The notes beneath the pieces are model-generated. The model made no database searches. It saw only the letters and a program-made list of their open reading frames with translations, and had not been told where the DNA came from. This document shows positions 5,932 through 56,800 of a DNA stretch of 64,000 nt, one piece after another. The translations under genes were made by a program, and so were the position numbers. This DNA is from Phorcus lineatus (Eukaryota > Mollusca > Gastropoda > Trochida > Trochidae): contig OV121094.1 of assembly GCA_921293015.1 (NCBI GenBank), positions 8,484,764 through 8,548,763 of the forward strand, in the 5' to 3' direction. Every line of letters starts with the position of its first letter. The stretch's first letter is position 1.

Positions 5932-6374
5932 CATACTCTCCCCACAGAGGTAGCTCCGTCATAAAATCCTATACAACCTCTGTCTTAATACGAAGGTTTC
6001 TCGGGCTTCCGGCAGATTCCCCAACCGGCACAATGTTGCAACTTAACTAACTGGCAATATTTCAGCCAATGAAAACAACTAATGCATGAATAACATATTT
6101 GTTGTCACACAGGCCTGTGCAATGATACAGTCGCAAAATGAGGCGTTTGTGTTCTGTAAAGACGATTCAAAGAGCAAGGTGCAACTTCGAATAAAATTTA
6201 GATTTTGGAAAGCTTACGGAAATAACTTAAGCGATTTGAATGATAACTTTTGCACAATTAACTTTGATTGCATCAAATCAGTGTTCTACATTTCTAGACC
6301 AAGAAACCTTAGTACTAAAAGGTATTACGTTGTATAGGAATTTATGACGGAGCTACCTCTGTTGGGAGAGAATG
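5932..6374. mobile_element. MULE-like MITE, copy 1
   Basis: A 443-bp element with long terminal inverted repeats beginning CATACTCTCCCCACAGAGGT, ending in the complement (ACCTCTGTTGGGAGAGAATG). It is flanked by a perfect 9-bp duplication, CTTCTTCTC, at 5923-5931 and 6375-6383. Long TIRs plus a 9-bp TSD are characteristic of Mutator-like elements. The interior holds a short open frame (6086-6337) that is also recognisable in copy 2. No transposase is present, so the element is non-autonomous. Confidence 0.85.
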
Positions 6375-9051: not shown

Positions 9052-9497
9052 CATTCTCTCCCAACAGAGGTAGCTCCGTCATAAATTCCTATGCAACCTC
9101 TGTCTTAATTCGAAGGTTCCTTGTGCACGAAATGAAGAACGCTAATTGGATGCAATCTAAGTTAGTTGTGCATTCAGCGACGCCGTTTCAAATATTAGCA
9201 TTCAAATCGCCTAAGTTATTCCGTAAGCTTTCCAAAAGCTAGACTTTATTCGAATATGCACCTTGCACTTTGAGTCGTCTTTACAGAACGCAAACGCAGC
9301 ATTTTCCGACCGTTTCATTGCACAGGCCTGTGTGACATCAAATATGTTATTAGAGCATTCGTTCTTTTCATTGGCTGAAATATAGCCAGGCAATATTGTC
9401 CCGCTAGGGGAAAGTGCCGGAAGACCGAGAAATCTTCGAATTAAGACAGAGGTTGTATAGAAATTTATGACGGAGCTACCTCTGTGGGGAGAGAATG
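9052..9497. mobile_element. MULE-like MITE, copy 2 (opposite orientation)
   Basis: A 446-bp copy of the 5932-6374 element, inserted in reverse. The termini read CATTCTCTCCCAACAGAGGT and its complement ending GGGGAGAGAATG. The 9-bp target duplication is GACCCTCCC, at 9043-9051 and 9498-9506. The interior, read on the minus strand, gives the same frame as copy 1 (for example TQACAM followed by FCKDDSK and FWKAYG). Two copies with different perfect 9-bp duplications establish true element ends. Confidence 0.87.
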
Positions 9498-12970: not shown

Positions 12971-13045
12971 AAACCCTCGCAGTATATTATATCATCCTCG
13001 TTTAAAAGTATACTTGAGACATCCCCGTTCTTACAACCCGATTAA
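12971..13045. repeat. 3' flank of Ly6 gene A shared with gene B
   Basis: The sequence from TAAACCCTCG to the TTAA at 13042 aligns, with substitutions, to 21708-21775 just beyond the gene B stop codon. The segmental duplication that made the two genes therefore extended past their 3' ends. In gene A this flank is split from the coding exon by the MITE at 13046-13516. Confidence 0.6.
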
Positions 13046-13516
13046 AGAGCCACTCCGTGAGTTGTTTGAGTCATATATGCCAAACTTAATCAATCGTGTC
13101 ATTTGATTGCGAAGTATCGACTGTTACAAAAAAGACACATCTTAGAGCTTATTGTTTTTTTACAGTGACAACATGAAGGTAGCAATTATGATCGAAAACC
13201 GGACAGTGGCGCGCGTCAAATAGTCAAACGTAATTTTGGAGACTTATTCTAAACAGCCAGAAGGGCAGTTAGGAGTTAATAACGTTTGTTAGGTTATATA
13301 ACTAGTCTGAGTAGTCTCCATGTATATTGGACGTGATATCTTCACCTCTGTGCATTAATAAGGCTGTTTTTAGATTTTCAGGAAAAAACAGTATTTGTCA
13401 TACCTATGTCTTTTGGACATGAAAAGTTAAGATGTTTTGATTTTATATCAACACATATGACATTTAGGTCCGTTTCAAAGGTAAATAATATTTTATGAAA
13501 ATCACGGAGTGGCTCT
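13046..13516. mobile_element. TTAA-flanked MITE, copy 1
   Basis: A 471-bp element with terminal inverted repeats AGAGCCACTCCGTGA / TCACGGAGTGGCTCT, bracketed by TTAA at 13042-13045 and 13517-13520. It has no coding capacity. TTAA duplication is the signature of piggyBac-type integration, though these ends start AG rather than the usual CC. Close copies lie at 20539-21010 and 42730-43197, and decayed pieces at 17424-17482 (inverted) and 55884-56130. The right TTAA contributes the stop codon of Ly6 gene A. Confidence 0.88.
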
Positions 13517-16500
13517 TTAAACCATATATCTTAGCAGCAAGCAAATGCTAAGAAGAAATATGGAAAGTTCCGTAATGGAACCAGTTGAAACACTTGGACC
13601 ATTACAAAAGCTGTCTTTGCACAAAGATACACAGCCCAAATATCCTTTCATATGGAAACCACACGTCGTAAAGTTGTTGGCAGTCATATTCTGAAAAACA
13701 GTCACGTTTCCAATTGAAAACGTCTTTCCGTCAGAGCAGTCACGGATGTAGCTGAGGACGGCTCTCGTCTCTGATGATGATAATAATGATTATGAAAATG
13801 TTAACAATAATGATGATGTGATATAATGGATAGTATAACTTTCGTGAATTTGAAGTTTAATTTATAAATAAATGTTCTTGAAAGAGGATTTCCATATTTT
13901 ATTAAATCAAACAAAGTGGATATATTATATACATAGGTGTTCACTTAGGTTCGACTCACGCAAAAGTTATCATTTTTTCAGGAGATGAAGAAACATCATG
14001 TTCCTACACTGTATCTTGTATTTAATTTTCATATTCCTAATCCCACACATTTTGCATTGATTTGTGATTAAGGGTTCAAATGCTAAAACTTATTTTTAAG
14101 AATTATAATTTTTCAAAACGAACGTAATTTATATCATAAAGTTAAACTTTATTAAAAACTTTGTCGAATATTTCCGGAAATGCGATTAATCGATATTTTT
14201 AATTGAAGAAATAGGAACATCAAAATTCTCAGTTTAACCCCATGTTTCTTTTGGGTCATGCCGGAATTGCCACCACACGCCACATATATATAACCTTTTG
14301 TACCTTTTTGTAGTATTAATATATGCCCTTAAGATATTGATCCTTAAGTATGGTCTGGTATGTTTCGTAAAGAATTGGAGATAATTAATTAATTTAAATT
14401 AATATTAATATATATATGAAAGGTTGCAATATCATTTGAAGAATTCATAATTCACTCACCGCTATTCACAATCTCTTCAATCATACAGTTTTCTCTCCCA
14501 ACGTCACATTGTTTTACGTAGGGGAGAAAGCCGTCAGTGTTCCAACTGACGTCCGTGAGGTCATCATCTGACGAGTTCTTGAGTGCCGCCAATACCTTTG
14601 TACTTGACTTTGCCATCCCTTCAATGTCTGCTTTACAATCACCATCGGTACCCGTGCTTCCGCATTGGTAGCAGAGCAGACCGTCTGTAAACAGAATTGT
14701 TTTATAAATAGATGATATTCAAGGCATCGTTTCACGTTTATGGATATTTATTTTTGTTAACAAAAATGAATGTTTAATCCAAACTCTCTGATATATATCA
14801 TTTTAGAGGGCAAAACATCTCATTACTCAACCGAATTATTCGTAGCCATGGAGAAAGTGGCACGTATCATTAAGAAACTCCATTTGAAACTCTTATTGAC
14901 GCTTTGACTTTGCAACGATTAACGAACTTTGTACTTTCGTTTGAGATCTACTTTTTTGAATTCAGACAGTTTGTTCGCAGGTAATGAGCCTACACTATCG
15001 GTGCGAAAGAGACATGCCATCGATCTGCGTTGCTGATAATTGTCCTGTCAAACAGCGTAACTGGAGATATTCACCCATTCATCACGGATATTAAAATAAT
15101 AATGTTTGAAATTTCAATGAACATAGCATACAATGACCATTTATTATACTAACATTTATTTCAACATAAAGACTTTGTAAAAGAGATGTCGTCATATTCT
15201 AATTTTGGATAACCTTTTGAAATTCAACTGAAAGTAATAAACGTTGAAACAATTGTGAATCAAGTTTCGAGTTTGTGTTTGATAGGCGTTCCTCTCGAAT
15301 ATTCGGTACATCGGCATTGTCTTCGGGAAAGGCTTCGTTGTCACTCGATAAATCATTAAAGGGTTTTATTATTTTGAAATGTTTTTAATTTAACATATTT
15401 TCACTTGAGACACGACATTAAGATTATATATTTTTTGAAAATCTTTACATTATTACAAATATGCACTTAAAATATGACCAACTTAGGTTATATATTCTTT
15501 TTTTACTGACAATCATACAAACCAATTAACCATTGGTACATATATTCCTCTTTACTTGAATGGTTAAATAGAAAATATAGGCGTTCCAATAAAATTTGAA
15601 ATATTAATCTACGTAAATTCTTTTTAATTTTAACACTGAAAAAGAACCTTGAGTTGAACAATTATGGAAGAGGATATATGATTAAATTTAATGGCTCGTC
15701 CGTCTTTCTTTGCGTTTTCTTACAAGGAGAGCAAACATCGGTTGCTTTAAATAGATTAGGGGATCTCCATTATTTCATGAAATAGCCTCTAAACAGTGTT
15801 TTTTCAGGTACTACTCTTCCCACAATGCAAGTTGTTTTCTTCTTAATTAATTCTAAGAATTTTAACGATTATTCTTCTACATTTTTTTCTTAAATGGACT
15901 TAAGAGGAAATTTAAGATATTTCTTAAAGTTAAGAATTCTTAAGGAATCTTAAGTATAAAACTAAGAAAATTCTAATAACTAAGAAAGTTTTGTGAATAC
16001 CGGCCCAGGTTCATACAGGTCGTGAACATCCGCTGGGACCGACCGCGTCCGAATGACAACTCTCCAAAATTGAAGATTGCACACAGTCATTCAAACAGAC
16101 AAATTTCGTTTTATATAAAAAGATAGACTTTAGGAGTTTTGTACAAGTATATGGTTACACATGATTCATTTTAAAAATTCAATGCACTGACAATGAAACA
16201 AGGGTCCATACTATTACTATTCATTTAACACAGGTTAGTTCAAAACTGACTGAGGATTCATACTGTCTATTTAAACGATTTGAAAATGTTACCTGTCTGT
16301 TTATAGTTCTTATTGCCGTAAATCAAATTTTAAAAAATCTTAGCATTTTATAATCTGAAATTCCGAAAAACACAGCGATGCTGAAAGTCAAATTAATCTA
16401 GCACACCTTGTTATTGTTAATGCGTATTTGGCTTGGGTTGAACTTTTTTTCCTGTTTTCCATTTGAATTGTTATCTACGGTTCCGTAGTTATCCTTCCAT

Positions 16501-18214: not shown

Positions 18215-19855
18215 CACTCATGGCAAAAATGGTTGTCACCCCCAGACTGAGAACGCTACGTCAAGTTTAACTGAGTGTTGACAAATAATCAAACATGCAA
18301 TAACTGTCAGAATGATTTGTGTGATTGGGAAAAACATTCGTAAAACATACCAGCTTGTATTTTGGTCTTGTGCTGGCCAATTTAAGAAATTCTACTAGGA
18401 TATGTATGGTCCCTGTGAAAAAGGGCAATTTTTTACAGTATCCATATAGTATCAATTGGATGGGTATCAATAAAACAAATTACATTTTCAAGTTCAATTG
18501 TCGGTTTTATTTCATTCTGCAGTCATGTATGAGTATATTTACAAGCCTAATATCGGGTAGCACCGCCTCTGGAATTTTCAAGGGCGATAATTCGGGCAGG
18601 CATACTGTCTATCAGTGTGTTGATGTTTGCAACAGCCAAATTGTTCCATTCATTCACAAGAGCAGCCCGCAATTGCTGTAAATTTGCAGGAGCAGGGTCC
18701 AGTCTTCTAATTGCACGGTCAAGCTGATCCCAAGCATGTTCTATCGGATTCATATCCGGACTTTTTGAAGGCCAGGGCAATCTTGTTACTCCTTGTGCCT
18801 GAATGAAAGCGTTCACTGTACGTGCACGATGGGCTGGTGCATTATCGTCCTGCAACAGGAAGTTGTTGCCATACACTCTTCTTGCATGTGGGAGGCAAAC
18901 GGTTTCAAGAAGACGTCTGTACGACCTCTGGTTGACGTTTCCTTGAAGGACGACAAGATCCGTTTTACCGTTATGGTGTATTCCTGCCCATACGTGTACA
19001 GAACCGCCACCGTGGGCAACCTGATGCTGCAGACAGTCGTCATTGAGCCTTTCCCCACGTAAACGTCGCACTCTCACTCTCCTGTCCACCTTATGTAGTA
19101 GGAAACGAGACTCGTCAGTAAATATGACGTGACGCCAATGTCCAAGTTGGATTCTGCGGTGCTGCTGCGCCCAAGCAAGCCGTGCCCTGCGGTTGGCCAG
19201 TGTCCAGAATGGTTTGATGGCAGGTCTTCTTGCCTTATATCCATGCTGGAGCAACCTGTTCACTACAGTTCTCCGGCAAATGGGCGTATTAATATGAGCC
19301 CCCCATCTCTGTGCAAGAGTCAAAGACGAAAGACTTCTATGACGTCGGGTCAAACGAAGAAGAATTCTATCCTGACGAACCGTAGTTTTCTTGGGACGGC
19401 CTGAAGACTTATTCGGAACAACATTTCCCTGTATGGCGTGCAGTCTTTTAATCCTTTGAACAGTTCTAACACTGACGTTACATGCTGCAGCAATGACACG
19501 ATTCGAAGCGCCACCACGACTCATGCCAATGATTTCATGTCTGATTCCTGGTGGAGTGGGACCAGGCATGGTCTATGCTTTTCAGAAACTATAGTCGTGA
19601 AGCTGTATCTTATGAAAGAGGTCTATAGTAATCGATGGAAATGACAAACCTAAGGAGACAAATTTCCATCATTTCAATGAAATGCACGTGGTCTACATGA
19701 AACCGCTGACACTGTTCATTGTAAAGTGTGAGTTAATGTAACTTCATGCCTGTAATGACATTTCCATGGAAAACCAACATTGCCATGCATACAATGTGAT
19801 ATAAACTCCAATTTAATTAAATATTAGGGGGTGACAACAATTTTTGCCATGAGTG
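18215..19855 (-). mobile_element. Full-length Tc1-type DNA transposon
   Basis: The element is 1641 bp with ~29-base terminal inverted repeats. The left end reads CACTCATGGCAAAAATGG and the right end is its complement (CCA[t/a]..TTTTTGCCATGAGTG). It is flanked by TA dinucleotides at 18213-18214 and 19856-19857, the expected Tc1/mariner target. The two ends differ at only about one position over the TIR and the transposase frame is open, so the insertion is young and may be autonomous. Confidence 0.95.
18547..19569 (-). CDS. Tc1 family transposase (DD34E), intact
   Basis: 340 residues, the normal Tc1 length. The N-terminal third is a paired-like helix-turn-helix region (GASNRVIAAACNVSVRTVQR), then a GRPKKT hook. 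The catalytic triad is complete: the D of FTDESRF, the first D of DNAPAHRA, and the E of MNPIEHAWD, with 34 residues between the second D and E. There are no stops or frameshifts. It cuts and pastes DNA at TA sites by binding the element's own inverted repeats. It sits inside the 18215-19855 element between Ly6 genes A and B. The start ATG (MPGPTPPGIRHE) lies about 290 bases inside the right TIR, as usual. Activity is inferred from intactness only. Confidence 0.97.
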   Translation of the reverse strand: MPGPTPPGIRHEIIGMSRGGASNRVIAAACNVSVRTVQRIKRLHAIQGNVVPNKSSGRPKKTTVRQDRILLRLTRRHRSLSSLTLAQRWGAHINTPICRRTVVNRLLQHGYKARRPAIKPFWTLANRRARLAWAQQHRRIQLGHWRHVIFTDESRFLLHKVDRRVRVRRLRGERLNDDCLQHQVAHGGGSVHVWAGIHHNGKTDLVVLQGNVNQRSYRRLLETVCLPHARRVYGNNFLLQDDNAPAHRARTVNAFIQAQGVTRLPWPSKSPDMNPIEHAWDQLDRAIRRLDPAPANLQQLRAALVNEWNNLAVANINTLIDSMPARIIALENSRGGATRY

Positions 19856-20534: not shown

Positions 20535-20538
20535 TTAA

Positions 20539-21010
20539 AGAGCCACTCCGTGAGTTGTTGTAGTCATTTATGCCAAACTTAATCAATGATGTCATTTGAT
20601 CGCGAAGTACCGTCTGTTACCAAAAAGACACATTTAATTATTAAAAACTGTTATTTAACAGTGACACTCTGAAGGTAGAACGTCGCAGTTATGATCGAAA
20701 ACTGGACAGTGGCGCGCGTCAAATAGTCAAATGTAATTTTGGAGACTTATCTAAAACAGCCAGGAGGGCAGTTAGGAGTTGATAGTGTTTGTTAGGTTAT
20801 GTAACTAGTATCTATGTATATTGACGTGATTTCTACACCTCTGTGCATTTATGAGGCTGTTTTTAGATTTTCATGGAAAACCAGTATTTGTAATAAATAT
20901 GTCTTTTGGACATGAAAAGTTAGGATGTTTTGATTTAGTATAAACCACATATTACATTTAGGTTCGCAACAAAGGTAAATAATATGTTATGAAAATCACG
21001 GAGTGGCTCT
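20539..21010. mobile_element. TTAA-flanked MITE, copy 2
   Basis: A 472-bp copy with both AGAGCCACTCCGTGA termini intact and TTAA at 20535-20538 and 21011-21014. It is very similar to the copy at 13046-13516 over its whole length. It lies about 750 bases beyond the 3' end of Ly6 gene B. Confidence 0.88.
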
Positions 21011-21014
21011 TTAA

Positions 21015-28190: not shown

Positions 28191-28484
28191 TGAAGTATGA
28201 AAGGTTGAAAACTTACACGTCACATAAATAGGACCTGGAAGTGTTCTATTATAGTCAAGTCAGTCACCAAGTGTACAACTCATACTTTTCAGAGATGAAA
28301 GCAAGTTTACACAAAATTCCAGTAAGTTAACCTTACTTTCTAAGGAAGAAGTATCAAATTGGTTATAATCTAGGGCCACTTTAGCATCAAAGTCAGAGTT
28401 GTACAATTTAAAGTCAGAAATCTTAGACTCTTCAGTTTTCGAAGATACTTTTACATTTCAGCCTCCTATGCAGACTGGTTTGGG

Positions 28485-28797
28485 TGAGGTGAGGTGAGTT
28501 GGTGTTTAACGCCGCTTTCAAGATTATTTCACTTATATCGCGGCTGCTAGTATTATTGCAGGGAGAAAGCCCGCAACACTATAGTGGCTATGCATTGCGG
28601 TGAAACCTGCGAGCATCGGCTGGAACTAGCAAACCATGGGTAGTACTGCGCTGAATTTCAGTGTAGCATTGCACCCAAACCTGCGTGTAGAACAGTTCTC
28701 TACTGCAGACAAAGTTGCCGAGCCCCTGGCGGGATTCGAACTACGGACCTCCTGATCCGAAGCCGAACGCGCTAACCACTGCGCTATCCCGCCCCCT
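28485..28797 (-). mobile_element. tRNA-derived SINE, full length, 13-bp TSD
   Basis: The 13-bp duplication AGACTGGTTTGGG flanks the element at 28472-28484 and 28798-28810. On the minus strand the head is tRNA-like: A box TAGCGCAGTGGTTAGCGCG and B box GTTCGAATCCC. A body and a 3' domain (AAGCGGCGTTAAACACC) follow, and the tail is a (CTCAC)n run. The 3' domain resembles the widespread SINE domain called Nin-DC. Related copies are at 48418-48715 and 41574-41798. Confidence 0.92.
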
Positions 28798-33991: not shown

Positions 33992-35157
33992 TAAAAAAAA
34001 TGTATCTAAAATTATACAATATTTCAAATTTACACAGATTTTACCAAAAAGTAAAGATACAAAATAAAACAATATTTTCACAAAACATGGGACCTTTTAC
34101 GCAATTTATACTTGCACATATGACAAAATCTAACAACATAAAAAAAATCTGTTGATTCAGCAATATAGAAAGGGTTTGGTTTTCAGGATATTTCATATTC
34201 TCTCTGAAGCCTAAATGTCGATTTCGCTAATAAATCCAAATTCTCTCATTCTTAAAATATGGGCAAAAATTGTGGCATTGAAAAAGAAATATAGTCATGT
34301 TAGTTGCTCTTATTACAGCAGGTTAACAAGAAATACAGTGATTACTCTATTAATTCAACCAAAGAATTTATTTTTTTGAATTCTGAAAATTTTCGTTCAC
34401 TTGGTCCTATGTTCAAAATTACATTTGAAAGCTTTAACTTTTGCAATTATCTAATTTCATAGATTATCACACATATTACAGTTTTATATTAGATCACCTA
34501 ATAAACTTTTGTGTAGAAATGACATTCTCACTGAAAGGGTTTTAGAATTCATCATAGTGACGTCCATGAATAATTTCGATTTAATAAGAGATATTTCACC
34601 CTCGAACTTGATACTTTGAAATTATTTCACAATTTTTAGCAAAATGTTCAATGGATTTAAGACCATGGTCCAATTATTAGAACATCAACAATGAACTTTT
34701 GACATGTGATTGAAATATCTTACTCTATAAGAGTCATATCATTTACTAGTCAAATTATCTGAGACGTTGAATTAATGGAGAAATTATTGTATTTAAGAAT
34801 TTCAAAAGGAAGAAATTCACTTTCAACATAAACAAACTGTTAATAAGTATTGTTATGCCCACTTAGGGTCCAGTCAAATTAATCAAAATATAACTCATAA
34901 TCATCTAGTGCTTTCTACCCTTTGTTATTATATGAGCAAGTGAGTCATATGGATTTTTTTAAGAATTTTATTTCATCCCATGGCACAATTTCAAGTAAAA
35001 TTGTAATTTTTCTCCCATTTTATTCCATTTTAATCACAAAAATATAATCCCCCCTAAATGGCCTAATTCCCTTGAGACAGTCATTTAACTTCCCCATAAA
35101 ATGTAAGTAATTCTAGCACATTGCATTAATTTGCCAAGTATTTAAAACAGGTTTGAG

Positions 35158-35214
35158 TGAGTGAGTAAGTTATTGTTTAACGCCGCTTAGGCAATATTTC
35201 AGCCATTAGCGGCG
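35158..35214 (+). mobile_element. Solo 57-bp stem-loop (SINE 3' domain) insertion, copy 1
   Basis: Exactly 57 bases lie between perfect 15-bp direct repeats TAAAACAGGTTTGAG at 35143-35157 and 35215-35229. The insert is a GAGT-rich tail, then TTAACGCCGCT, a loop containing GGC-AATATTTCA-GCC, and closing AGCGGCG. CGCCGCT pairs perfectly with AGCGGCG. There is no tRNA head or SINE body. Confidence 0.85.
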
Positions 35215-35973
35215 TAAAACAGGTTTGAGGCCACTTGTCGTAAGTAGTGAGCACTAGATGAAATTGATTACTTTCATCAAGAAATACAGAAATACTACAA
35301 AGTGTCACTCACAACAATAAGCACACTTCATAAACAGCACCAGAAAATAACAATTCTTGTATTTTGCAATACAATGTGAAAATCAAGTAGATAACAGCCA
35401 GTAAACATGGTGACAAAATATGCATGATCAGCGAAAATGAAATGTGGTTTCTAATGTGGTGATCAACCATGTTCAATGACAAAATCAAGGTTTGTGCTGT
35501 AAAATATTCACTCAACACTTGCCTTTCAATATAAATTCAGTTGTAAAGTTCAGGTGGGAAAATAGAAGGATATCTGTAAGGTGATGTTTGAGTTGTCTCC
35601 CTTTAACTGGAAATGAGTATTGATCTTAAATATGGCCCATTCGGTAGGTACCTTTTCGAAAAGATGTCTCCCTCTAATTGGAAATGCTTTCAATAAATAA
35701 ACAGAAAAAATAATACCTTTTGCCTTAGAATTTTGTAAAAGGACATTACCTGTAATAAATTAATTATGATAAAGAATAATATGAGGGCGAAAAGTTCAAA
35801 ATGGATATTGCTGTTGACACAACTTCCTCTAAACTGGCTAATTCAAATCTTGTTGCATTCCATGACATTTCTGTTTAAGAACTTGATAGTCCATTTATTA
35901 GGAATCTTAGGATGATTGCAACATTCAAAGTGGTTACAGCACTCAAACCATGAATTATGGTGCTCAGCATGGA

Positions 35974-38854: not shown

Positions 38855-41800
38855 TTACATGGCCTTTTCTTTACTAGAATTCTGTAGCTCTTCTATAAAT
38901 TTCTGTATCCTATCTCCAGGTATGCCGTATCTTCGAACTATTGTATCGTCTATGGTTTTCTGAAAGAATAACATTATAGTATTGCTCTAAACCTAATCTA
39001 CAGATTTCTACATAGCTTTTCTGGATTTTTTTTCATGTAGGGTTTTCTGTTATTCATACCACTGAATTTTTTCAGATTATTTCTGTAACTTTTTCTTTCA
39101 AAAATTAATTTCTTTTTTCTTTGGATATTACACACATCCACAGTGGAATTCCATTTGAGAGTCTTTCACATCGTCATAGCGACAGCCAACGCACACAGTG
39201 TGGAACCATAGGTCACAGTCATCACACTGCACCTGAAAAAAAAGAAGATTATTTGAATTGCAGATAAATCAGAGATTTGAATGTTTATACTTGTATTCCC
39301 TAGAAAAACAGATTTTAGACTTTCCCCTTTAGAGTTGAGTTGGGTTGGGGGTGATGGTGGGAAGTTGAGGACATCAAGTCGATGCAATACAAACCTCTTG
39401 ATGCGTAACAATTTACAAATGCAAAACACTGATGAGCAGAGTCAAGACAAGTAGAGTTTAAGCTAGATAGAGTTCACACCACTCTCAGCAGCATATGACT
39501 TGGATATCATTGATAGATCACTACTAATTTTGTCCGAAGAGAGTCAGAAACATTATCATGGTGATGCATGGGAAAGAAACCTGTGTGTAAACGACAGACA
39601 TAATTTTAAGTAAACGCAACTAACACAAACACAGATGAATTAAGATAGAGTTTATGGTTCTGCAGGTCATCTTGTTTCTTATAATAAACTATTTATATCA
39701 GAAATTAACCTCCAATAGCCCTAAATGAATATTCACAGTATCAATAAGCTTTTGGTGTGCAAACATATATCCATGGCAACAAATACTTGTATTTACCCAA
39801 TTGATCCTTGAATTTATGTGAAAAATAAAAAAAACAGGACTCAAGTCAACTTGTGAACCATTGACAATATGAAAATTAAGTTAAGTGCTGGAGGACTTGA
39901 TTGAGACATAAGAAATGTCCTTTACCAGGGTTATGGTAAAGTACAATGGCACTTGCATATTTTTAGGTACAATTTTTAATGTACTTTTGATTTTTTTTTT
40001 ACAAAGTACTTACTTGAGTCAACTATGAAAGTACTTGAAATAATAAGTACATTTTAAGTACTTTTCAAGGTTAAACAGTTTTAATGTTAAAGAAAAATAG
40101 CTTCAGCATTGCATTTTTTTGCTTTGTATATTGTTTAGGATCCATTGTTAAAAGGTAAATTTTAGATTTCCCCTAATAATGGTATATGAAGAACAGAAAT
40201 ATGAAAACAGCAACTTTCTTTAAAAAAATCTGATAAAGCCATTGTTTTAAGAGGATACACCTGCTGACCACATGTTTGACAGTAGAAACATACAATAGGG
40301 GGATTATAAATTTGATGTGTAAAGGCTGATACCGCTGAATGATCCGATGTAATTAGATCACATAAGGTTCGAATAATTAATATCCTTACATTAGATTACA
40401 TGTTTTCCATGCAAATTATGTTAATGTTCTGTTCTCCATGAATTTTCCCGCATAAATGGTGGCAGGTGGCAGATCGTGTGTATAGTCAATATGTAACCCT
40501 TTTGGTGCACTGCTGACCTAAGGTTGTTATATTTCTTAGCCAATATTGGCCCTTTTAACGTTTTCATTGTTGATTGCAGGTCAAATAATCCATATATAAT
40601 TGCATTAGCAGAGGGTTAAAGTGAGTGCCTATGCCCCAATGTGCCTTAAGATACCGAATTTGAGCTGTAAAATGCATGCTATATTGCTCAAAAGTTACAG
40701 ATGTCATTTCCACCAAACATTCAATTTGAGCTCACTGTATGATATGATTCGTTATTCGCACCTTGAGCATTGGAATTGAGACGGAATTAATTGTATCTCC
40801 TAAAGGCAGGGGAAGAATGTTGAGCAACTTGAACATCATCTATATTATTCAAAGATGATCAGTTTATCGAGTCATTTTGGCTTATTTTTTAAAAGATCTG
40901 AACCCTTAAAATTGTCAAGTAAAATTTTAGAGTACTCCCACAAAGCCAGTTTCCAATTCCTGGACAGTAAACAAATACCGGATTACAATCAACAACCCTA
41001 ATTAATTTAATCAGGCGATCTATTTTCATGGCAGAGTGACATGTGAACTTAGTTCACCATATTTAATGTGTGAAAAGTAAGGGTGTCATGATACATAATT
41101 GTATCGATGTATCGATCCATTTTTACTGCCAATAGGATACATGATACGTGACTAGTGTATCGATTCTTTTAACAGTATCAATACATATTTTTTGCAATAT
41201 CAATATCTTCTTCATTAAACTTATCTTGGTATTGTTCATTTGAGGCTTTTATCTTTTTAATTTTGATATGTGACAATATATCCTATGTTCTATCTATTTC
41301 CTTTAACAAATATCCCATCTATTTCAATATCGTTTCAATTTCATTTAACAAATAAAGTTGGTTTATTTGATTTCTTTATCTGAAGTAGAAGTGTTCTTCA
41401 GAAACGCACCTAAAATTGTCAGTCACTTGTTGTTAACAGTTTAACCCGTAAACACAGTCTTTTCTTCAGCAATTTGAATGAAAAATATGAATCACAATAC
41501 GTATTGTATCGTGACATCCCAAATGAAAAGTATTCCATCTCCAAAATAACCGCTAGAGACAGCAATGAGGGATTGAGTGATTTGGGTTTTAACGCCGTTT
41601 TCAAGATTATTTCACTTATATCGCAGCTGCTAGTATTATTGCAGGGAGAAAGCCCGCAACACCATTGTGGCTGTGCATTGCGGTGGAACTAGGGAACCAT
41701 GGGTGGTACTGCACTGAAACTCTGTGTAGCATTGCACCCAAACCTGACTGCATGTAGAACAGTTCTCTACTGCAGACAAAGTTGCCGAGCCCCTGGCGTA

Positions 41801-44800
41801 ATCACAGCATGGTAAAGATATAAGGAGAAGAATTGTGACTCACCCACTGAACTCTGCGGTCAGACGGCCGACTACAGTCACATGATGCACACGTCTCCAC
41901 CTCGTACCACTCAACCCCTTCCTCCAACTTCTCGTCGTCCTTCCTCATGACCCTTGACCTCTTCTGCCGTGTTGGTCCAAATCTTTTCTCTGTAACACCA
42001 TCAATCAAATTCTTTTTTAACCATTTGCCCATATATTAGCAGTCTCTGTCAGGGCTAGCAGAACAGTTATTGAACTTGTTTACAAATGAAGACGAGCTAA
42101 AATGTTACAATTGATCTGGTCAGAAAAAATCAAATATTTCTACATACCAATCATGCCAAGTACAAATGGAATTTCAGGAAATACAACTTCTTGGCAGCAA
42201 AATTTAAAGTATGAATCATCATATATATTTTAATTTAATTTTAATTTAATCAATTAAATTTTAATATATTATATAAATATTTTCATATAATTACTTACTT
42301 TTTCTTTTCTTGGTTGAGTTGGTTGATATATTGGAGGGTCTAATGTCCGAGGACTTGCCTAAGAAAACAAGAGGGATGTTTATTAAATCATTCTCCACCA
42401 ATAAAAATATTTAACTTTTCATGTAGCCTCTGTCACCATTGGACCCTTTTCCTAGAAATGTCTCCAAGGTCAACTAGTTGTGGAATTTTTTCAACTCGGA
42501 TAAGAACTTTTTTTTATCAAATACCAAAAATTCTTATTTCTCAAATGTGAAAGCCGATCATGTGTAAATTGCAAAGCTAAAATCACCTGCAATTATTACA
42601 ATTAAGAAGTTTGTCATCCAGAAAAGATTGCCTTCCTAATGCATGATACTTTTAAATGCCCTACAAAGACTTGAAGGAAATCTATTCTTTAATTTAGTTT
42701 GAAACAATGTCACCGTTTTCAAAACTTAAAGAGCCACTCCGTGAGTTGTTGGAGTCATATATGCCAAACTTAATCAATGGTGTTAATTTGATCGCGAAGT
42801 ATCGACTGTTACCGAAAAAGACACATTTTAAAGCTTGTTGGTTTTTTACAGTGACAATATGAAGGTAGAACGTCGCAACTATGGCCGAAAACTGGACAGT
42901 GGCGCGCGTCAAATAGTCAAACGTAACTTTGGAGACTTATCTAAAACAGCCAGGAGGGCAGTTAGGAGTTGATAGTATTTGTTAGGTTATATAACTAGTA
43001 TCCATGTATATTGGACGTGATAACTATAGCTCTGTGCACTTATAAGGCTATTTCAAGATTTTCATGGAAAACCAGTATTTGTCATATATGTCTTTTGGAC
43101 ATGAAAAGTTAAGATGTTTTGATCTTATATCACCACATACGACATTTAGGTTCGTATCAAAGGTAAATAATATATTATGAAAATCACATGGTGGCTCTTA
43201 AGGAGTTTTTATTTCTAGACATGAAAGTTCTCCATGTGTAACAGAGGCCATGTGGGAAAAAAAGACAAGGGAAAACTCTTGAAGAGTGAAAATGAATCAG
43301 TGCTGAAACAAGCAGCTGACATGGTCAAGCTATATCCCTGCAACTTGAAAAAGTTTTGAGGTATAATGATATAATACATTATATCAATTTAAGAGTTTCT
43401 ATGACTGTATTAGAGTTAACGATTCCTTAGTATTATTTTACTGACTAATGTCATTTGCATTGTTGGAAATAATGAAAGAAGGAAACTGTTCAATAAAAAA
43501 TGACATGAAATCAATATTCTTAGGAGAAACTCACAAAATTTAAAGGAAATATTTTCAAATCATGTTTGTTGTAATTGTACCGATTCAAATCCAAAAAGAG
43601 AAATAGTATAGGCAGAGAAGAGTGGATCATTTCAGGATTTTTTATATCAAAATGATGGGTCCAAAATAAAGTCCTAAATGATTTTTTTTCAAATCTATCT
43701 TCATGTATTTCTGGATCTCTGTGATGAGTTTTCAGATCAAATTTCTTTGGATGAATAGTTTAGAAGCTTTCCCTCAAATCCAAAATTTTTATTAAAGACT
43801 TCTCAAAACAGGTAACTATGACATATCATTACATATTTATTAATTGCCAAGGCAAATTTGAATTGAAAAGTTTGATTATTAACTAAGTTATGAGCTTAAC
43901 ACAATTCTTAAGGACTGACGGACGGACAGTGCCCATTTTAATACCCCCAGAAACTTTGTTGTTGCGGGGGGGACAAAAACTTATAATTGATTGAACGTTG
44001 GTGAAATTTTGATTCAAATATTGATACAAATGTTTGCAATTTGCAATATACAATATCCATAACGCATGCCGTGAGTCATTTACAAATAAACACAATGCGT
44101 TAACAAAGGTTAATTCCTGAAAATCAATACAAACTAAGGCTTTCATGCAAAAGAGGAAACTCATGATGTTATTTGATAAAAATACAATTCATTCAATGTG
44201 AACAAGAAATATCAAGCAGGAATAGAGTTGACCTTTTTTCTACTAAATAAATATGTTATGCGTGAACTTGTGGATAAATTTTGCAGTAAATATCAAGCTT
44301 AAGAGAATCGTTTTTCATTCACAAAGAAGGGGCTGACAACATTGCAGTCATGCCTAAGTCCTTTACATCCCTTGGGCTTCATTTACAGAGAATTTGGAAA
44401 TGCGTCAAACAGTAGAAGGCCCAATACAACAAATCATATCTTCCCACGCATGGCTCATTCTTGCATCAGGCCCAATGACAAGCTCAGATGGGCCTTGCCG
44501 CACTTCCCCAACTTTTCTGTGCTTGTCGTCCAAGCTGCTTTGACGGATCCCAGTAGTTCAACAAGAAATCATATGAGAATTAAAACTTTTCACCGAAGAG
44601 GCGCTGCACTCAAAACACAAATTTTGAAGGGTTGGCAGCAAGATTTAAATTAGCCAGTGATAGAGAGTGGTGCAACGAAGCCATTTCGGGGGAAGATGAA
44701 CAAATCACAGGAGAGCTGAATACTCCTCGATAGGGGCCCATTTCACATAGCTACCCTTACTCGGGTTAACCTTATCTACCATTCTTTAAAATTGAACTAA

Positions 44801-47800
44801 GATTACCTAAGTGACTTAGGATAAACTTTGTGAAAGGAAACCTTTTCAGAATTTGACTTCTAAAAAGGGATTGATTGAGCTTTTGTATATCACAGCCACA
44901 CCTCAAATATAAAGGTCACTTTCTGATGAGTGATAAACGAAAATGTTTTTCTGTGACCAGGTTGCATCCAGCACTCAGAAGGTTAACTAATAAGTAAAAT
45001 TTGAAAGGAACCAAAACAAGCTGGAAAAGCAGCCAGCCTATAAGAATCCCTCACAGTTCATAGGTCAAAATCAAAAAGGAAAATCTTAACAAGTAAAGAA
45101 GTGAGCTCAGCTCACATACCCCCGCTTCAAACTATAGTCTGGCTTTCTTTGTTGGTCTTACCCTCAAAAAGCTCACTTAGGGATCATGGTTGATAAGTGT
45201 ATTAAGTTTGTTGAAGCTAGCATGTATAGTTTAGGAGATATGCTCAGGAAAAAGCACTTTGTCAGATAGTCATTGTTTTAGTAATGTTTCCATGTAAAAC
45301 GCAAAAAATTAAAATAAATTTTTGGTCTTACCCTCAAGAGACGCACCAATATGGATAAGTGTATGAAGTTTGGTGATGATAGCATGTACGGTTTAGAAGA
45401 TATACTCCGGACAAAGGACTTAGTCATAAATTCACCGTTTTAGTCATGTTTCCATGGAAAGCGCAAAAAAAATAAAAATCATTTGTTGGTCTAACCATCA
45501 AAAGGCACATCAATGGATCATGGTTGATAAGTGTATGAAGTTTGGTAAGGATAGCATGTATAGTTATGAAGATATATCCGTACAAAGGACTTTGTCACTG
45601 TTTAAGTCATGTTTCCATGGAAACCTCAAAAAATAAAAATCATTTGGTGGTCTATCCCTCAAAAGGCACATCTAGGGATCATGGTTGATAAGTGTATGAA
45701 GTTTGATGAAGATAGCATGTATAGTTTAGGAGATACGCTCCGGACAAAGGACTTGGTCATAGAGTCACTGTTTTAGTCATGTTTCCATGGAAACCGCAAA
45801 AAATAAAAATCATTTGTTAGTCTAACCCTCAAAAGGCACATCTAGGGATCATGGTTGATAAGTGTATGAAGTTTGGTGAAGCTAGCATGTATAGTTTAGG
45901 AGATACGCTCCGGACAAAGGACTTGGTCATAGAGTCACTGTTTTAGTCATGTTTCCATGGAAACCGCAAAAAATAAAAATCATTTGTTAGTCTAACCCTC
46001 AAAAGGCACATCTAGGGATCATGGTTGATAAGTGTATGAAGTTTGGTGAAGCTAGCATGTATAGTTTAGGAGATATGCTCCGGACAAAGGACTTGGTCAT
46101 AGAGTCACTGTTTTAGTCATGTTTCCATGGAAACTGCAAAAAATAAAAATCATTTGTTGGTCTAACCCTCAAAAGGCACATCTAGGGATCATGGTTGATA
46201 AGTGTATGAAGTTTGGTGAAGCTAGCATGTATAGTTTAGGAGATATGCTCCGGACAAAGATTTGTGACGGACGGACAGACGGACAGACAGACAGACGGAC
46301 GGACAGAATGAACGCTATATACCCCCGCTTACGCTGTAAGGCGGGGGTATAAAAATTGCCAATCTGGAGCTAGTGGCCTGTAAATCGGCTGTCGGTTAGG
46401 CTATACTATATACACTGCAGTGACAAATATAATTTGCAGTAGTATCAAAGTTATGAAAACAAACATATCATGCTAAACAGGCAGTCAGTAAAAGGTCAAT
46501 CAAAATCAAATCATGGTTAGGTAAACAAAGTGTAAAAGTGTAACAAACAAGTATATTTCTCCTTTTTTCATTCAAATAATCTTTTTCAATTCATTAAAAT
46601 TCTCAATGTGCATATATGTAGATCACATAAATAAGAGATTAGCATTAACAAGATTGAGTAAAAATCACGACTGATATAAATTATTCATGAGTTAGTGAAG
46701 TAAATATTATTCTTCAAACAACTAACAAATGCTAGATCAACAGTACTTCAAAAGCAAATATATCAAAAACAAGGCAGACAGAAACAAATTTGCAATCTGC
46801 ATCGGACAGGAAATGAATAAATCGAAACAGGAAGTACCAGCAGAGCTGTCGTCGGTGTGGACTTCCTGTAGCAGTAGCTTCACCTGATGGTGGATCGCCT
46901 GAAGATACCGCTCTCCTTCACCATACAAAATACAGTTTGATAGTCTCGCACCAGAACTCAGTCTCCAGCTTTTTACATACACTGGGATATCATCCAAATA
47001 AAAGCCACACCCTGTGGCCTGTGACCTTTGAACTAGCTAACAATCGTCAACCAATAGCAACACTTGAAATCAAGTCTGCAATATCAAAATCATCCTGCTT
47101 CATCAGCGTTTCTTAATAATAATAATAATGATGAACTTATATAGCACCTTATTTCCAGCAAGAGCTGCTCAATGGCGCTGGAGAGGGAAAGAAAGGGTAA
47201 GATACAATGTACAAAGGTCATGGAGATGTAGGAATTCAGCGGAAAGAGAGCAGATATATTTTTAAGTCTTTCTTGAAACAGTCTAGAGATTCAGTTATGA
47301 ACTCCTTCCAAACACCCTCTTTCAAGCCAAATGCCTTGTATCGCAAGCTTTCTAATCAGCCAATGAGACGACTCGCATCCAACAACAGCAGGATGGGAAA
47401 ATATGTAGCTTCAAGCCCGACATTTCATTTTCTATACAAGAAATATAAGTTGAGCAAAGCAATGAAAGCCACAAGGGTTTGGGTTCGAAAGAGATCAGGG
47501 TATTGAGAAGGAGCTCAGCGGATTCAAAAACGCTGATGTTGCAGGATGTATAAAGATTGCACCACCTTGTTCCCAGGTTTCCAACCTGGTTCCTCCAATC
47601 GGATCAATTCGGAGCTCCTACAGGTTCTCATTACAGTGATTTCAAACAAATTATACACCTACTTTCATAAATTCGAAAAGCCTTTGATTTCACCTCCCTC
47701 ATCTAAGGATAACACCACACAAAGGTAATAATACTGTTATTATCAAGAACCATCTCACTAAAACTGTCTGATTGCCTGGACAGAAGTCACAGAGCATAGC

Positions 47801-50800
47801 TATTAGTGGGATAATATTCAAGGTTATGTAAATGGAGTGAGAGCATAAACATTTTACCCTCCCCCCAAAGAGGTGGCATAAGTCATGAAATCCTACACTA
47901 ACCTCTGTTTTATCTCATTTTTCTGCCCACAGAGGTCGCTCAAGTCAAAAAATCTTACACTATCCACTCTTATCTCTTTAGTAAAGAACTTTTCTTACCT
48001 CTGATCTAATTCAAGCACTTCTCAGGCAGGTTAGTAAGGCAATCAGTGTGCAAATCAAAATTTATCATTAGCAAGCCATAGTTCAGGAAAATAGAATTAT
48101 TGAAGTGTGAAGTACACTCTTGAGTCTACAATGACAGAATACAGTCACACTCTATGTCCACTGAACCATGACACCTGCCCAGGTGACAGAAAGAAGAACA
48201 TGCAAAATTTCCTTGGCTGAAATTTTGTAGCTAGTTTGTGTTGCAAGTTTTTACACTAGGGCACCTCCTGAAAGCCTTAGAAGTGCAAAATTGAACAGAA
48301 GTTAGCGGAGGATTTTTTAAGCTACCTGTGTTGGGAGATGCGATAAAACAGAGGTTGGTGGAGTAGATAATATAACTTGAGCTACCTCATGGGGAGAGAA
48401 TAAGGTAAAAAAAGAGGTGAGGTGAGGTGAGTTGGGGTTTAACGCCGCTTTCAAGATTATTTCACTTATATCGCGGCTGCCAGTTTTACTGCAGGGAGAA
48501 AGCCCGCAACACTATAGTGGCTATGCATTGCGGTGAAACCTGCGAGCATTGGCTGGAACTAGCGAACCATGGGTGGTACTGCGCTGAATTTCAGTGTAGC
48601 ATTGCACCCAAACCTGACTGCGTGTAGAACAGTTCTCTACTGCAGACAAAGTTGCCGAGCCCCTGGCAGGATTCGAAACACAAACGCGCTAACCACTGCG
48701 CTATCCCGCCCCCAGGGTAAAAAAGAGGTTGGTGGAGGATTTTATAACTTGAGCTACCTCGTGGGGGAGGATGAAATAAAAAAGAGGTTGGCAGAGGATT
48801 TTATGGCTTGAGTTACTTCTTTGAGGATAGAATGAACGCAAATGTGTCTTCTTATTCAAGGGCCTTGCATACAATTTCAGGGAGATAAATCCTAGGTCAC
48901 TGGCCTATCATTTACTGCTTTCAGACCCTCCAAACATCTTCAGAAGGTAGGGCAAGTAACCTCTTGCTTCAAACAGATAATTTGGAAATAATTTTGGCTT
49001 TGTTTGAATCCGTTGCAAATAGATTATTTCATTACTGAATTACCTGGAATTAGTACTTGTCATATCTTGCTACAATGAAATTGTAAGAAAAAATAATATA
49101 AAGCAGAATGACTGAATAAAGGGTGAAAAGATACACCAGACGCAAAATACAATCTTGATGAAAATACATAGACATGTGGACAATAATTTGCTCATATAAT
49201 GAAAGAAGCAGTGATCCCTTTCAGAGACAATTAATGACATGCAAGATGATGTTCCATCATCAGAAAAAATTGGCAAAATCAGGGCTCCAGTTAAGATGCG
49301 TATCTGCGTAAAATACGCACGGGTAATTCATAAATACGCATTTAAAATGAAATCAATGAGTAACTGATACACACAACTTTTGCAGAATACGAGTCAGATA
49401 TTTGTTTACAGGAGTGATCGTGACTTGTCAAAATAAAGTTTCATTTCTACATGTCTGATCTTTACATCTCGAATAGTAGCCAACTTGATGCCAACGTTTA
49501 TGAAAAGAAAGTGTACCGAGTTTATATCTCATCAAAGATAAATGACTCCTTTATTTACAGTTTAAACGTGTGGAAAACATAATCAACGACTAACATCGAA
49601 AAAGATATTAACTTGGAATGAGGATCCGAAAACAACCAACCTTGAAATACTCCTACTTAATTTCATGTGGTAAGTTTACTCCTCAATTTTAAAATACCCC
49701 TGAGTACAAATAATTATCTGGAGCCCTGAAAATTATTCAATATTCTGACAATTGAATTTCGAGAGCAACAGAGCACACATCTTTGCAGAAAGTAAGAGCT
49801 GAACTGTTCAGTACTTACTGTCGCTATCTTCACTGAACATCGAGTTGGACTCTCCATCTTGGTCACGTTTTGAACTGAAACAAATTGGGAAAATACTAAA
49901 GGTAAATACTTCCTAGGCCTATTCTAAGGTTAAGCATTTGCTGTGATATAAATCTGGGTACAATGGGAGATAAAACGACACCTTAGTGGATAAAAATTAT
50001 GGTTGAGGTTATGTTTTTTTTATGGATCTTACTTGTTTAGTTATGATTCCACTTGAATAAATGTCAATTAAGTGTATCAAATTTTGGATGTAAATAAAAC
50101 AACCTTCACCGGAGACACTGCTTTTGATGCCATAGCACAATTGTTTTTTAAATGTCGATGTCCCAAAATTGTTCTGCAACATGACAACACTAAACAAAAC
50201 ACTTTGTTTAGACATGAATGCCATTGAATGGAGTTTAGAGCTTTGATGAAACACGACTCAGTGTTTCATGCTGAAAATAAGCAGATTTGTTCCTCCCTTC
50301 ATTTCTCTAACTATGAATAAAAGAATATTCTCCAAAAGACTTATATTATCCCTGTGGGACTAGTCTCTTTGCTCTGATTGGTTGTCAACCTCAGCACCAT
50401 AGAAGTTTTGTTGAGACAAGGAAACTACCAAGTTTGTTCAATACTATTTGTTAAATTATCACATAATACATATCTGTGGATATGTAAAGTGCATCATATG
50501 AACCAATGTGAAACTTTATATTATATGAGCAAGGCTTATACACAAATTCAGGAGTTTCGTAGTTCAGCAGGCTCATTTTAAAGTGTAATAATTTATTTTT
50601 GTACAAATCTGACTACAACTGATCCGCAAAATAAAAGAAAAGGGCCTGATTCTTAAAGATGGCCTGCTAAAATGACAAACGTCAAAGGTTTTTAATGGCA
50701 TCACAGACAGCAAAATCCTGATAAAATTACCAAAATCGGAAAGTGCACATGTGCACATATGGAAAATTGCTACAGTTTATCGTCTATTAATGATGGCCTG

Positions 50801-53800: not shown

Positions 53801-56800
53801 TGTTGAAAGTGACTGAAAGCATAAATATAACAATTTAACTATGCGGACAGCAACAGGTCAAAGGTCAAAATAACAGGCTATTAGTTATAAAACAATGGCG
53901 AGGATGAAAGGCAGGGTCAGTTCGCATTGCTAAAATTGAAAACTAACACAATACCTGGTACAACAGCTTGTTTGTGTATCAGTAATTCTCTAGGTGGTTC
54001 TGGCCCTATGATTGTTTGTTTATCATTATAATATACATGCATTCATAAGCTCTTAAAAACATCAACAACAATTTGATTAAATTATTATGGAAGACAATAT
54101 AAAATCAACAAACAACTAAATTTTAAAATTATTTTTGATATTTTGATGAAATCTTTTTTAAATATGGAATGATGCCAATAGTATCTAAGAGACCCACTTT
54201 AGGTCAATGACCTAATGCCATATAGCCACCCTGGACAGTGTCACACAGATGAATAATTGTGACATCAAAATGTGGCCTCGGGAACTGCAGTCAATTTTTT
54301 GGAAAATGACAAAATGACATTCACACACTAACACAGAATAATAAAACCTTTAGACAAGCAGAATCTACTTTACATAATGTATCCTTTTGCAGTGTTTTGG
54401 CCTAGCAAACTTGTGGGATTTTAAGAAACAATTTCAAATCAACTATTCAGAATCAAGAATACACCGGTTGTTACGCTACATAATATGTACACACAAGAAA
54501 CATACTTACAATGAACTGGAACTCTGAATGGGGTTGAATGGAGTGCTGACCAGGGGCTATCTTGTAGCCGTTTGTGTGACCAAAAGTAATTTTATCTCCC
54601 TCCTTCAAAATGCGATGGTCTTTTATCTGTGATTGTAAATAAAGAAAAGAAATATAAAATTGATATTATAAGTGTTACTTTAAAGCGTAACCAATCAAGA
54701 CAAATATTCTGTTCATTTTACAGGAATTGGGAAAGACAGGAGCCATGGGCCATTTAGCACATTAGATGAAGAAATGGCGTATTAAAATTAGAACTTTTAC
54801 TTTTGTTATCAATGAAAATTGCGCATTCAAAATTAAAAAAATGACTAAAATCCCTAAAATGGCCCATTGTCAAAGCTGTCCTCAACGATCCCTGTATTAG
54901 AACTACTAGAAAATGAAATATTTAATGATATCAAATGATTGATTAATGATAATACATGCAATATATAAACTGCATCATCACTGGAAGTTTCAAACATTCG
55001 AAGATATTTGAGAATGATTTATTGTTTAATGCCGCTTGATCAATATTTCAATTGTAAGCGACATGCATTCGAGAGATAGATAATGCTTTTTAAACAATAA
55101 GTTTACATGAAGGCACCTGTTCTAGTCTGAAAAGATGAAAACATTTTATCGTGTATCATGTGTATGGTCCAGTCAATGACATACTGTTGAAAACCTGTGT
55201 AAATGACTTTTTGCAACCTTGTTATATGAAATTAAATCTCACACTCTTGCCCAGAGTATTGTAACACTTTCATTGAAAAACTAAATTTATTTTCTTCAAC
55301 ACTTTTAGATATGTTTTGGGAGAATCTTCTACCCACCCTAACATCGTTGATGAATGTTCCATTGAGGCCCCTTTCTTGAAGAACAAATTCAACCTGACCA
55401 TTCTCCTTTAGTTTGGCTTCGATGTTGGCATGGTGACGAGAGATAAAGTTCTTCAACACCTTAGAGTCCAGGTAGAAGTCGTTGTCAGGACTCCTTCCAA
55501 ACCGATTCACACCAAGTCTCAGTCTGGAATGACATCACTTCATCAGATTGGACATCAACATATATACAGACAGAGTCGACAAGTGCATTACATTCACTTG
55601 TCTGTTGTTGAACCCTATAGTCTTCTAAAACAATCAGGGATTGGGAAAGGTAGGGGCCATTTAGCAGCACATTGGATGAAAATATGGCCCATTTAAATTA
55701 TACATTACACATAACCGGTAATTTCAAGCTTTAAATGGTAGTCAATTAAAAAATTAGTTGGGAGCCGTGTTTGCAAGTCATTTTTTAGCCGTTTTTGCCA
55801 ATTTGTAGCTGTTTACGCCAGTAGACGTTTTTTCCAGATCTCTGTTAAAAATGAACAACTAAGCATCACCATCACAAAAGAGTCTCTTTATCAAAGGGGC
55901 ATAAATTATGTTGTTGGAGTCAAAAATGTCAAACTTCATGAATGGTGATATTGTATTGAGTATAGTGGTTGTATCTGAAACTTAGCATCTACATGCTTAT
56001 CAGTTCAGTACAGTGACAGGTAGAAGTAGTGATTTATGATCGAAAACCGGACAATAGCACCTGCCAATGACTCAAATGATTTGCAAAATTATTATTGCAG
56101 ACAGAAAGACAAACATTGGCAGTGATAAGTAAGTGATTCAAATCATATAAATGTAAATGTGACATAAAATTTCTGATTCTGAATATTTATTTCAGGTATA
56201 AGGGTTTCGATAAAGGGTATCTCAAAGCTAATTAATGTCTGTTATTCGAAAAATGCAGTTGATATCATGTCATAATAATGAGATTATACATTGGGTAATA
56301 TATATGGTTTTAACTTTGTTCAGATTTCAACTCCATCAATGTCCACCGGCACTGGTTTTGTCTATAAATTTACGGGTTTACACTACAGCACCCAATGCCC
56401 TATCCTCTAAGACGTTGAACTTGAACAACTCAGTCCGTAAACACGTTCAGTTCTCATTTGGAAAATGGATTTCTTATTTCTATAACGGGTAGGGCCTAAC
56501 GTTGTGTTGGTTTTTTTTGACAACATCACTTATCCACTTGGGCTTATAAATCAATCGTTTCCGAAATAAAGCTTGAATATGTAAAGGACACTGACATAGT
56601 AAAAGTCAAGCACGTAATGTAACGATGCGAGAATAAAAAACAAACTAGGCCACAATCATTGTATAACAAAACACAAAACATGGACGCGGAAGCTAAGCAT
56701 GTTACAGTGCTGTCGGGTAAAGCTACGCACCTAAGAGATAGATGTTCATTCTTCAGGAAAAAATACAGTAAATGGGATAAAAACCACTTCATTGTTAAAG

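Follow-up and report, generated by a model that had tools for sequence, protein, structure and literature searches.

Bov-A-type SINEs carry the 3′ end of a LINE and have no tRNA head, as is also the case for the solo unit described here, and they are about twice as long or more. LINEs with tails of the stringent type, such as UnaL2, ZfL2-1/2, and SART1, likewise end, at the 3′ side, in a stem-loop close to a short repeat tail, and by analogy a LINE protein may recognize the hairpin of our unit. The tails of those LINEs are the ends of long elements, whereas here the tail region alone is the inserted, high-copy unit. Stringent-type LINEs are described as recognizing their 3′ stem-loop, which some share with SINEs (PMC5135761, PMC4176376). 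For example, the ZfL2 proteins require and bind their own 3′ stem-loop (PMC4176376). SINEs of the tRNA type with LINE-type tails are like the solo unit in being non-autonomous and in having a LINE-type 3′ hairpin and a repeat tail, but the solo unit is without tRNA head, body, or internal promoter. The tailless retropseudogenes of mammals reported by Schmitz and colleagues, as summarized in a later account (PMC3747384), are tail-free insertions from RNA of tRNAs or tRNA-related SINEs. They resemble our unit in being short RNA fragments that were probably inserted by a LINE enzyme, but our unit retains the LINE hairpin and the repeat tail. Finally, 5′-truncated LINE copies have a common 3′ end and target-site duplications (TSDs), as the solo copies do, yet one truncation point dominates in the solos.

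A literature search by title and the start of the abstract, with the main papers on mollusc SINEs outside its coverage, returned no description of LINE tails as separate high-copy units, and a search with sequence words returned no paper on a related repeat. Priority for such units is not claimed. Solo hairpins are a class of repeat that annotation can miss; one bivalve survey curated SINEs by a tRNA-related head and LINEs by the 5′ decay of alignments (PMC10294476).

Solo hairpins in the 64-kb window

The window, meaning the whole 64-kb stretch of DNA analysed here (C29:8484764-8548763), contains three solo copies of the unit. A first-pass annotation had described a 57-nt stem-loop between perfect 15-bp repeats, which was borne out at 35143-35229, and had placed further solo copies at 55.0 and 58.8 kb. 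Both are present, each with a 5′ end 2 nt before the stem (0 nt for copy 1). The features are listed below, with the stem, loop, and tail motifs of copy 1 given in the sense of the unit.

35143-35157, no strand: TSD copy A of solo copy 1, sequence TAAAACAGGTTTGAG
35158-35214, minus strand: solo hairpin retroposon, copy 1, 57 nt, sense on the minus strand
35208-35214, minus strand: 5′ stem arm of copy 1, CGCCGCT, at the sharp 5′ boundary
35188-35207, minus strand: loop and inner 3-bp stem of copy 1, AATGGCTGAAATATTGCCTA
35181-35187, minus strand: 3′ stem arm of copy 1, AGCGGCG
35158-35180, minus strand: 3′ tail of copy 1, TTAAACAATAACT and a (CTCA)n-type repeat
35215-35229, no strand: TSD copy B of solo copy 1, TAAAACAGGTTTGAG
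54995-55006, no strand: imperfect left TSD of solo copy 2, assigned by eye
55007-55065, minus strand: solo hairpin copy 2, decayed, 59 nt, stem kept through G-U pairs
55066-55078, no strand: imperfect right TSD of solo copy 2, assigned by eye
58775-58787, no strand: left TSD of solo copy 3, TCGGTATATTTTC
58788-58847, plus strand: solo hairpin copy 3, 60 nt, starting GT + CGCCGCT, TTAAGC variant
58848-58860, no strand: right TSD of solo copy 3, TCGGTATATTTTC

In the sense direction, copy 1 reads CGCCGCT-AATGGCTGAAATATTGCCTA-AGCGGCG, followed by TTAAACAATAACT and a tail of the (CTCA)n type, which continues into the target copy. The two copies of TAAAACAGGTTTGAG are perfect over 15 bp and flank a 57-nt hairpin with 7-bp arms; no further exact copy of this repeat was found elsewhere in the window on either strand. 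The CTCA (sense) of the repeat may be part of the tail, which would make the duplication 11–15 bp. The perfect TSD of copy 3 measures 13 bp, and an exact search (at least 8 nt) detected none for copy 2, where an imperfect repeat is visible by eye.

Folded as RNA, copy 1 reaches −17.0 kcal/mol (z −3.88), and 0 of 200 shuffles were equally good. Rfam at a relaxed threshold gave four matches in 35100-35260, all far below gathering (two microRNA families, a Tombusvirus element), and the only match at gathering level across the window was the SINE tRNA at 28727-28793. Snap-back of cDNA was rejected: the inner loop is asymmetric and is kept between copies 1 and 3. The 16-mer hairpin core TGGCTGAAATATTGCC also occurs at 6053-6068 and 9372-9387, once exactly and once with a mismatch, inside two inverted copies of another repeat that lie 3.3 kb apart.

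Position of the 5′ end among genomic copies

The genome (957.8 Mb in 74 contigs) was searched with the exact 26-mer AAGCGGCGTTAAACAATAACTCACTC, which covers the 3′ arm and the tail. The 5′ arm was not required, which avoids a bias toward intact hairpins. This word occurs at 1191 places and its reversed control at 0. Sample 1 comprises the first 100 of the 1191 places in genome order (95 on C1, 5 on C2), and sample 2 takes 40 places of the exact 25-mer CGCCGCTAATGGCTGAAATATTGCC, the first in its list that are not already in sample 1. For sample 1, a TSD script in which the 5′ end was free to fall anywhere in the 370 nt upstream placed 70 ends at the stem base (offset −3 to +3), 9 in the common LINE body, 4 inside the hairpin, and 2 farther upstream, with 15 copies left without an assigned end. 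Inspection by eye puts the ends of the “upstream” copies L068 and L140, whose targets are of low complexity, at the stem base as well. It also shows L154, one of the 15, to be LINE-linked, giving 10 LINE-linked copies in this sample. The TSDs were 11–14 nt long in 53 of the 70 stem-base copies.

Solos were then defined strictly, by an exact TSD of at least 8 nt ending at the stem base. Under this rule, the 140 copies of both samples comprise 101 solos, 12 LINE-linked copies, and 27 copies without an exact TSD; sample 2 accounts for 30, 2, and 8 of these, respectively. Exact TSDs of at least 8 nt were found in 101 of the 128 non-LINE-linked copies versus 59 of 2541 mismatched flank pairs, and those of at least 10 nt in 86 of 128 versus 0 of 2541. 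The TSDs of the solos range from 8 to 21 nt (12–13 nt in 50/101), and 139 of the 140 copies have CTCA in the tail region. Approximately 72 of 100 ends lie within 3 nt of one point, and the earlier proposal of a discrete unit, sharply bounded on its 5′ side, stands. The boundary at the stem base is dominant rather than absolute, since 27 of the 128 copies have no exact TSD under the strict rule and the 5′ arm is missing from 9 of the 100 copies of sample 1 (10 have more than three mismatches in nine positions, but L066 only through a loop deletion). The first-pass annotation had also named outcomes that would speak against its proposal, and the sampled copies show the opposite of each: no continuum of 5′-truncation lengths was seen among the 140, most are not joined to full bodies (12/140 are LINE-linked), and most solos do have a TSD (exact in 101/128).

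If the copies were simply LINEs or SINEs truncated at random on the 5′ side, the likeness of the three window copies would be a matter of chance. Variable ends do occur among LINE-linked copies, three of which start 45, 59, and ~283 nt upstream while L157 extends beyond 2 kb, and the starts of SINE alignments are scattered. However, the clustering of ~72 in 100 ends at one point, with the others spanning more than 2 kb, refutes random truncation for the sampled copies, and we give it very little credence.

The 120-nt upstream flanks of the 140 copies yielded 65 matching pairs in which both members are LINE-linked and 5 other matching pairs, one of them L152/L153, a single insertion inside a local duplication that is counted twice. 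No common sequence was found in the 120 nt upstream of the non-LINE-linked copies. Three copies (L111, L169, and L170) have an upstream repeat in common. A set of 28 loci ranked by similarity (L028-L055) was kept out of the counts except for L048, which is also in sample 1. The L048 solo interrupts one member of a dispersed repeat family, and uninterrupted relatives at 20673-20733 and 42863-42923 have a single copy of its target; this comparison is paralogous, not allelic. In the window, the host repeat family is found at 13042-13517, 20535-21011, 42726-43199, and 56018-56078. Another locus, L036 (C25:2915249-2916249), holds two solo hairpins in opposite orientation with starts 131 nt apart. 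Solo-like copies in L051 and L154 were found within ~240 kb of sequence outside the window; as a rough guess, with the density taken from few cases, the total including old copies may be of the order of 10^4. Pattern scans of viral and prokaryote contigs returned 27 loci, with the hairpin in none, and these look like chance bacterial or phage matches.

The parent LINE and the local tRNA-SINE

The solo unit is the 3′ end of a LINE encoding RT and RNase H. The 3′ UTR of this LINE ends in ...ATTAAATCTCA-CGCCGCTAATGGCTGAAATATTGCC.AAGCGGCG..., and the body-linked copies have a common ...TTTGCTTTTGCAATCAATTTCATTTCATTAAATCTCA before CGCCGCT, with small differences. At L073 (extended as L157), frames matching RVT_1 (PF00078, 1.5e-32) and RNase_H (PF00075, 2.7e-8) lie upstream of the same 3′ end. 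The RNase H presumably fits I-type LINEs, among others, as a candidate clade for the parent. The bivalve survey gives Nimb and Ingi as the I-superfamily clades of molluscs (PMC10294476). A search with the RNase H part of the protein found relatives in assemblies whose labels name Solemya gill symbionts or a Thiodiazotropha species (P0139, P0164, P0226); other assemblies are labelled Campylobacter or NC10, for instance, and the majority are unlabelled. Those in symbiont-labelled assemblies probably represent host DNA, which makes a bivalve or a different mollusc the likely owner of the genome studied here. A protein search with ORF 220-999 gave no match. Directly upstream of one truncated LINE copy, a long tandem array (L158:185-2938, within C1:42622100-42627100) has two frames open over several hundred codons.

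A tiny MITE-like hairpin DNA transposon would account for the perfect 7-bp inverted arms of copy 1 and its flanking direct repeats. Against this, the unit does not stop at the 3′ arm but includes a variable (CTCA)n tail beyond it, the TSDs are not of one length (8 to 21 nt), and the sequence equals the 3′ end of the LINE. The tail and the LINE-linked copies refute a MITE origin, to which we assign a negligible probability.

The first-pass annotation had taken the hairpin for the 3′ domain of the local tRNA-SINE, and in this it was mistaken. The tRNA-SINE at 28483-28793 has an Rfam tRNA, a 13-bp TSD, and a (CTCAC)n tail. Its hairpin is related to the solo hairpin but has another 5′ arm and loop, and an origin of the solos from this SINE was rejected on the strength of the different hairpin and tail. 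Copies of the SINE family, each with its own LINE-type 3′ hairpin, lie at 28483-28793, 48416-48710, and 41577-41798 (minus sense); one of the three has a 13-bp TSD, one a near-TSD, and one is truncated.

An exact 32-mer from the 3′ domain of the tRNA-SINE occurs at 2186 places genome-wide. Among the first 40 copies, 19 extend to the first SINE base (L210 as two pieces), another 19 have scattered starts between positions 3 and 175, one starts at the hairpin boundary (L222), and one starts inside the hairpin (L230). The stretches spanned 330 nt upstream of the word, and these starts are alignment starts by similarity rather than TSD ends. Ends at the stem base thus counted are 1/40 for the tRNA-SINE versus 72/100 for sample 1 (Fisher p 2e-15). 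Since the tRNA-SINE gives only this one case, a hairpin and tail of such a kind are insufficient on their own to produce solos.

We class the solo unit as a LINE-mobilised retroposon and not as a SINE because a promoter-bearing head was looked for and is absent. The first-pass annotation was correct that the unit has no SINE body and no tRNA promoter: at 57–60 nt, it is without the Pol III promoter head (tRNA, 7SL, or 5S) by which SINEs are defined, while its 3′ end is common with a partner LINE, as in SINEs. Insertion by LINE machinery, also proposed there, is supported by the TSDs, the repeat tail, and the identity with the LINE 3′ end. The solos have the TSDs of variable length and the 3′ simple-repeat tail beside the 3′ TSD copy that mark products of target-primed reverse transcription (TPRT). 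They do not have the scattered 5′ ends of 5′-truncated LINEs, nor the inverted repeats at either terminus and the constant TSD length that characterize MITEs.

The template for insertion

Four points are established: the unit itself, a sharp boundary immediately above the stem, the TSDs, and sequence identity with the LINE 3′ end. Going beyond these, we lean toward a promoterless retroposon of ~57–60 nt, consisting of the LINE 3′ stem-loop and (CTCA)n tail, that arises when a stub protected from decay is inserted alone via TPRT. In this model, the LINE protein would bind the 3′ stem-loop of its own RNA, as has been shown for stringent-type LINEs elsewhere. The RNA upstream would be lost, most likely through decapping and 5′-to-3′ decay that comes to a halt 1–2 nt short of the bound stem. 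Copying would then run to the end of the protected stub, in some cases with one more nucleotide added without a template, and the product would be joined to the target. LINE sublineages would continue to produce solos in this way, roughly ten times as often as longer copies. Precedents for individual steps appear in earlier reports: MOV10 recruits DCP2 for the decapping of LINE-1 RNA (PMC12140422), and non-templated bases may aid the jump from RNA to target (PMC2881922).

From the clustering of ends above the stem, the scarcity of ends inside the hairpin, and the 42 of 101 junctions with bases that do not fit the LINE, we infer that the template for insertion was a short RNA with its 5′ end 0–2 nt above the stem. 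Among the 101 junctions, 17 have no extra base, 13 have A, and 14 have CA. Non-fitting bases are expected of run-off at an RNA end; when their leading base was checked for a cap signature, it was G in 16, A in 15, T in 9, and C in 2. The count of extra bases depends on maximal extension of the TSD, and the assignments for L068, L140, and L141 are uncertain. The simplest maker of such a short RNA would be 5′-to-3′ decay stopped at a hairpin bound by the enzyme. As a counterpoint, the related tRNA-SINE is not trimmed to its hairpin, and decay of this kind needs the SINE RNA to escape it or to use another LINE.

The main rival to the protected stub is drop-off of the RT. Here the template would be a long LINE RNA, and an RT that holds the hairpin through an RNA-binding domain would leave after copying the 5′ arm, so that most insertions would be 5′-truncated at a single hot spot. 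The anatomy and the TSDs fit equally well, the LINE-linked copies show that longer copying occurs, and many junctions (the 17 without an extra base, the 13 with A, and the 14 with CA) need no non-templated nucleotide. However, a block at the hairpin should stop the enzyme at the 3′ arm rather than beyond the 5′ arm, and ends inside the hairpin are few (4/100 by TSD; 9/100 without the 5′ arm). The 42 junctions with non-LINE bases resemble run-off at an RNA end, and the tRNA-SINE, with its related hairpin, shows no such stop (1/40). From genomic sequence alone, a truncated template and an RT stop look the same; on balance we consider drop-off unlikely, if the strongest of the competing explanations.

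Sequence variants bear on the source of the protected stubs. An exact LINE-linked 32-mer occurs at 84 places, a lower bound given that the prefix match must be exact, versus 1177 for the hairpin 25-mer. The LINE-linked fraction is similar for the TTGCTC variant (10/104, 9.6%) and the main form (84/1177, 7.1%; p 0.33). Such agreement is expected of sublineages that produce solos at similar rates and would be unexpected of self-copying solos; it favours LINE RNA as the source from which solos continue to arise. Immediately before the stem, 66 of 91 main-form solos and 10 of 12 LINE-linked copies have A, whereas T is found there in 7 of 9 GCG solos, 5 of 6 TTAAGC solos, and the LINEs L069 and L166. 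This match between solo variants and LINE copies makes the 1–2 bases above the stem seem templated, from a template ending just above the stem.

A separate small-RNA gene could also supply the unit: one or a few loci with an outside promoter would make a ~58-nt hairpin RNA that the LINE protein inserts in trans, and the unit would replicate independently, much as a SINE would if it lacked an internal promoter. The roughly tenfold excess of solos over LINE-linked copies is in keeping with this. The GCG variant occurs at 116 places genome-wide and in 9 of 72 solos; it was not seen among the 10 LINE-linked copies of sample 1 (the search word of sample 2 excludes GCG). If anything, this variant speaks for a separate solo-only lineage. 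However, several variants, together with two bases before the stem, demand several source loci, and the TTGCTC form and a T before the stem are also found in LINE copies. The like LINE-linked fractions (84/1177 and 10/104) are unexpected for self-copying solos, and the solos have no common promoter-like sequence upstream. We therefore regard a small-RNA gene as improbable.

If stubs are indeed protected by the LINE protein, the ~58-nt retroposons may record what it protects, and most new insertions of this LINE would be footprints of the enzyme rather than copies of the element, a suggestion that we hold tentatively. The minimal RNA needed by a LINE machine in vivo could then be read from a genome: a hairpin and short repeat tail of 57–60 nt, with no body or promoter. 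Such a unit would also provide a natural test of whether LINE 5′ truncation originates in decay of the template or in a stop of the RT, and retrotransposition assays would gain a very small natural substrate.

The window holds further repeats of other kinds. A 341-aa Tc1-type transposase frame without stops (DDE_3) lies at 18547-19572 on the minus strand, and a 99% identical protein is present in public contigs. A tandem array with a period of 170 and 6.6 copies occupies 45148-46259, and a degenerate array at 60534-62159 has nine 60-nt members spaced 152–286 bases apart, mostly 178–199.
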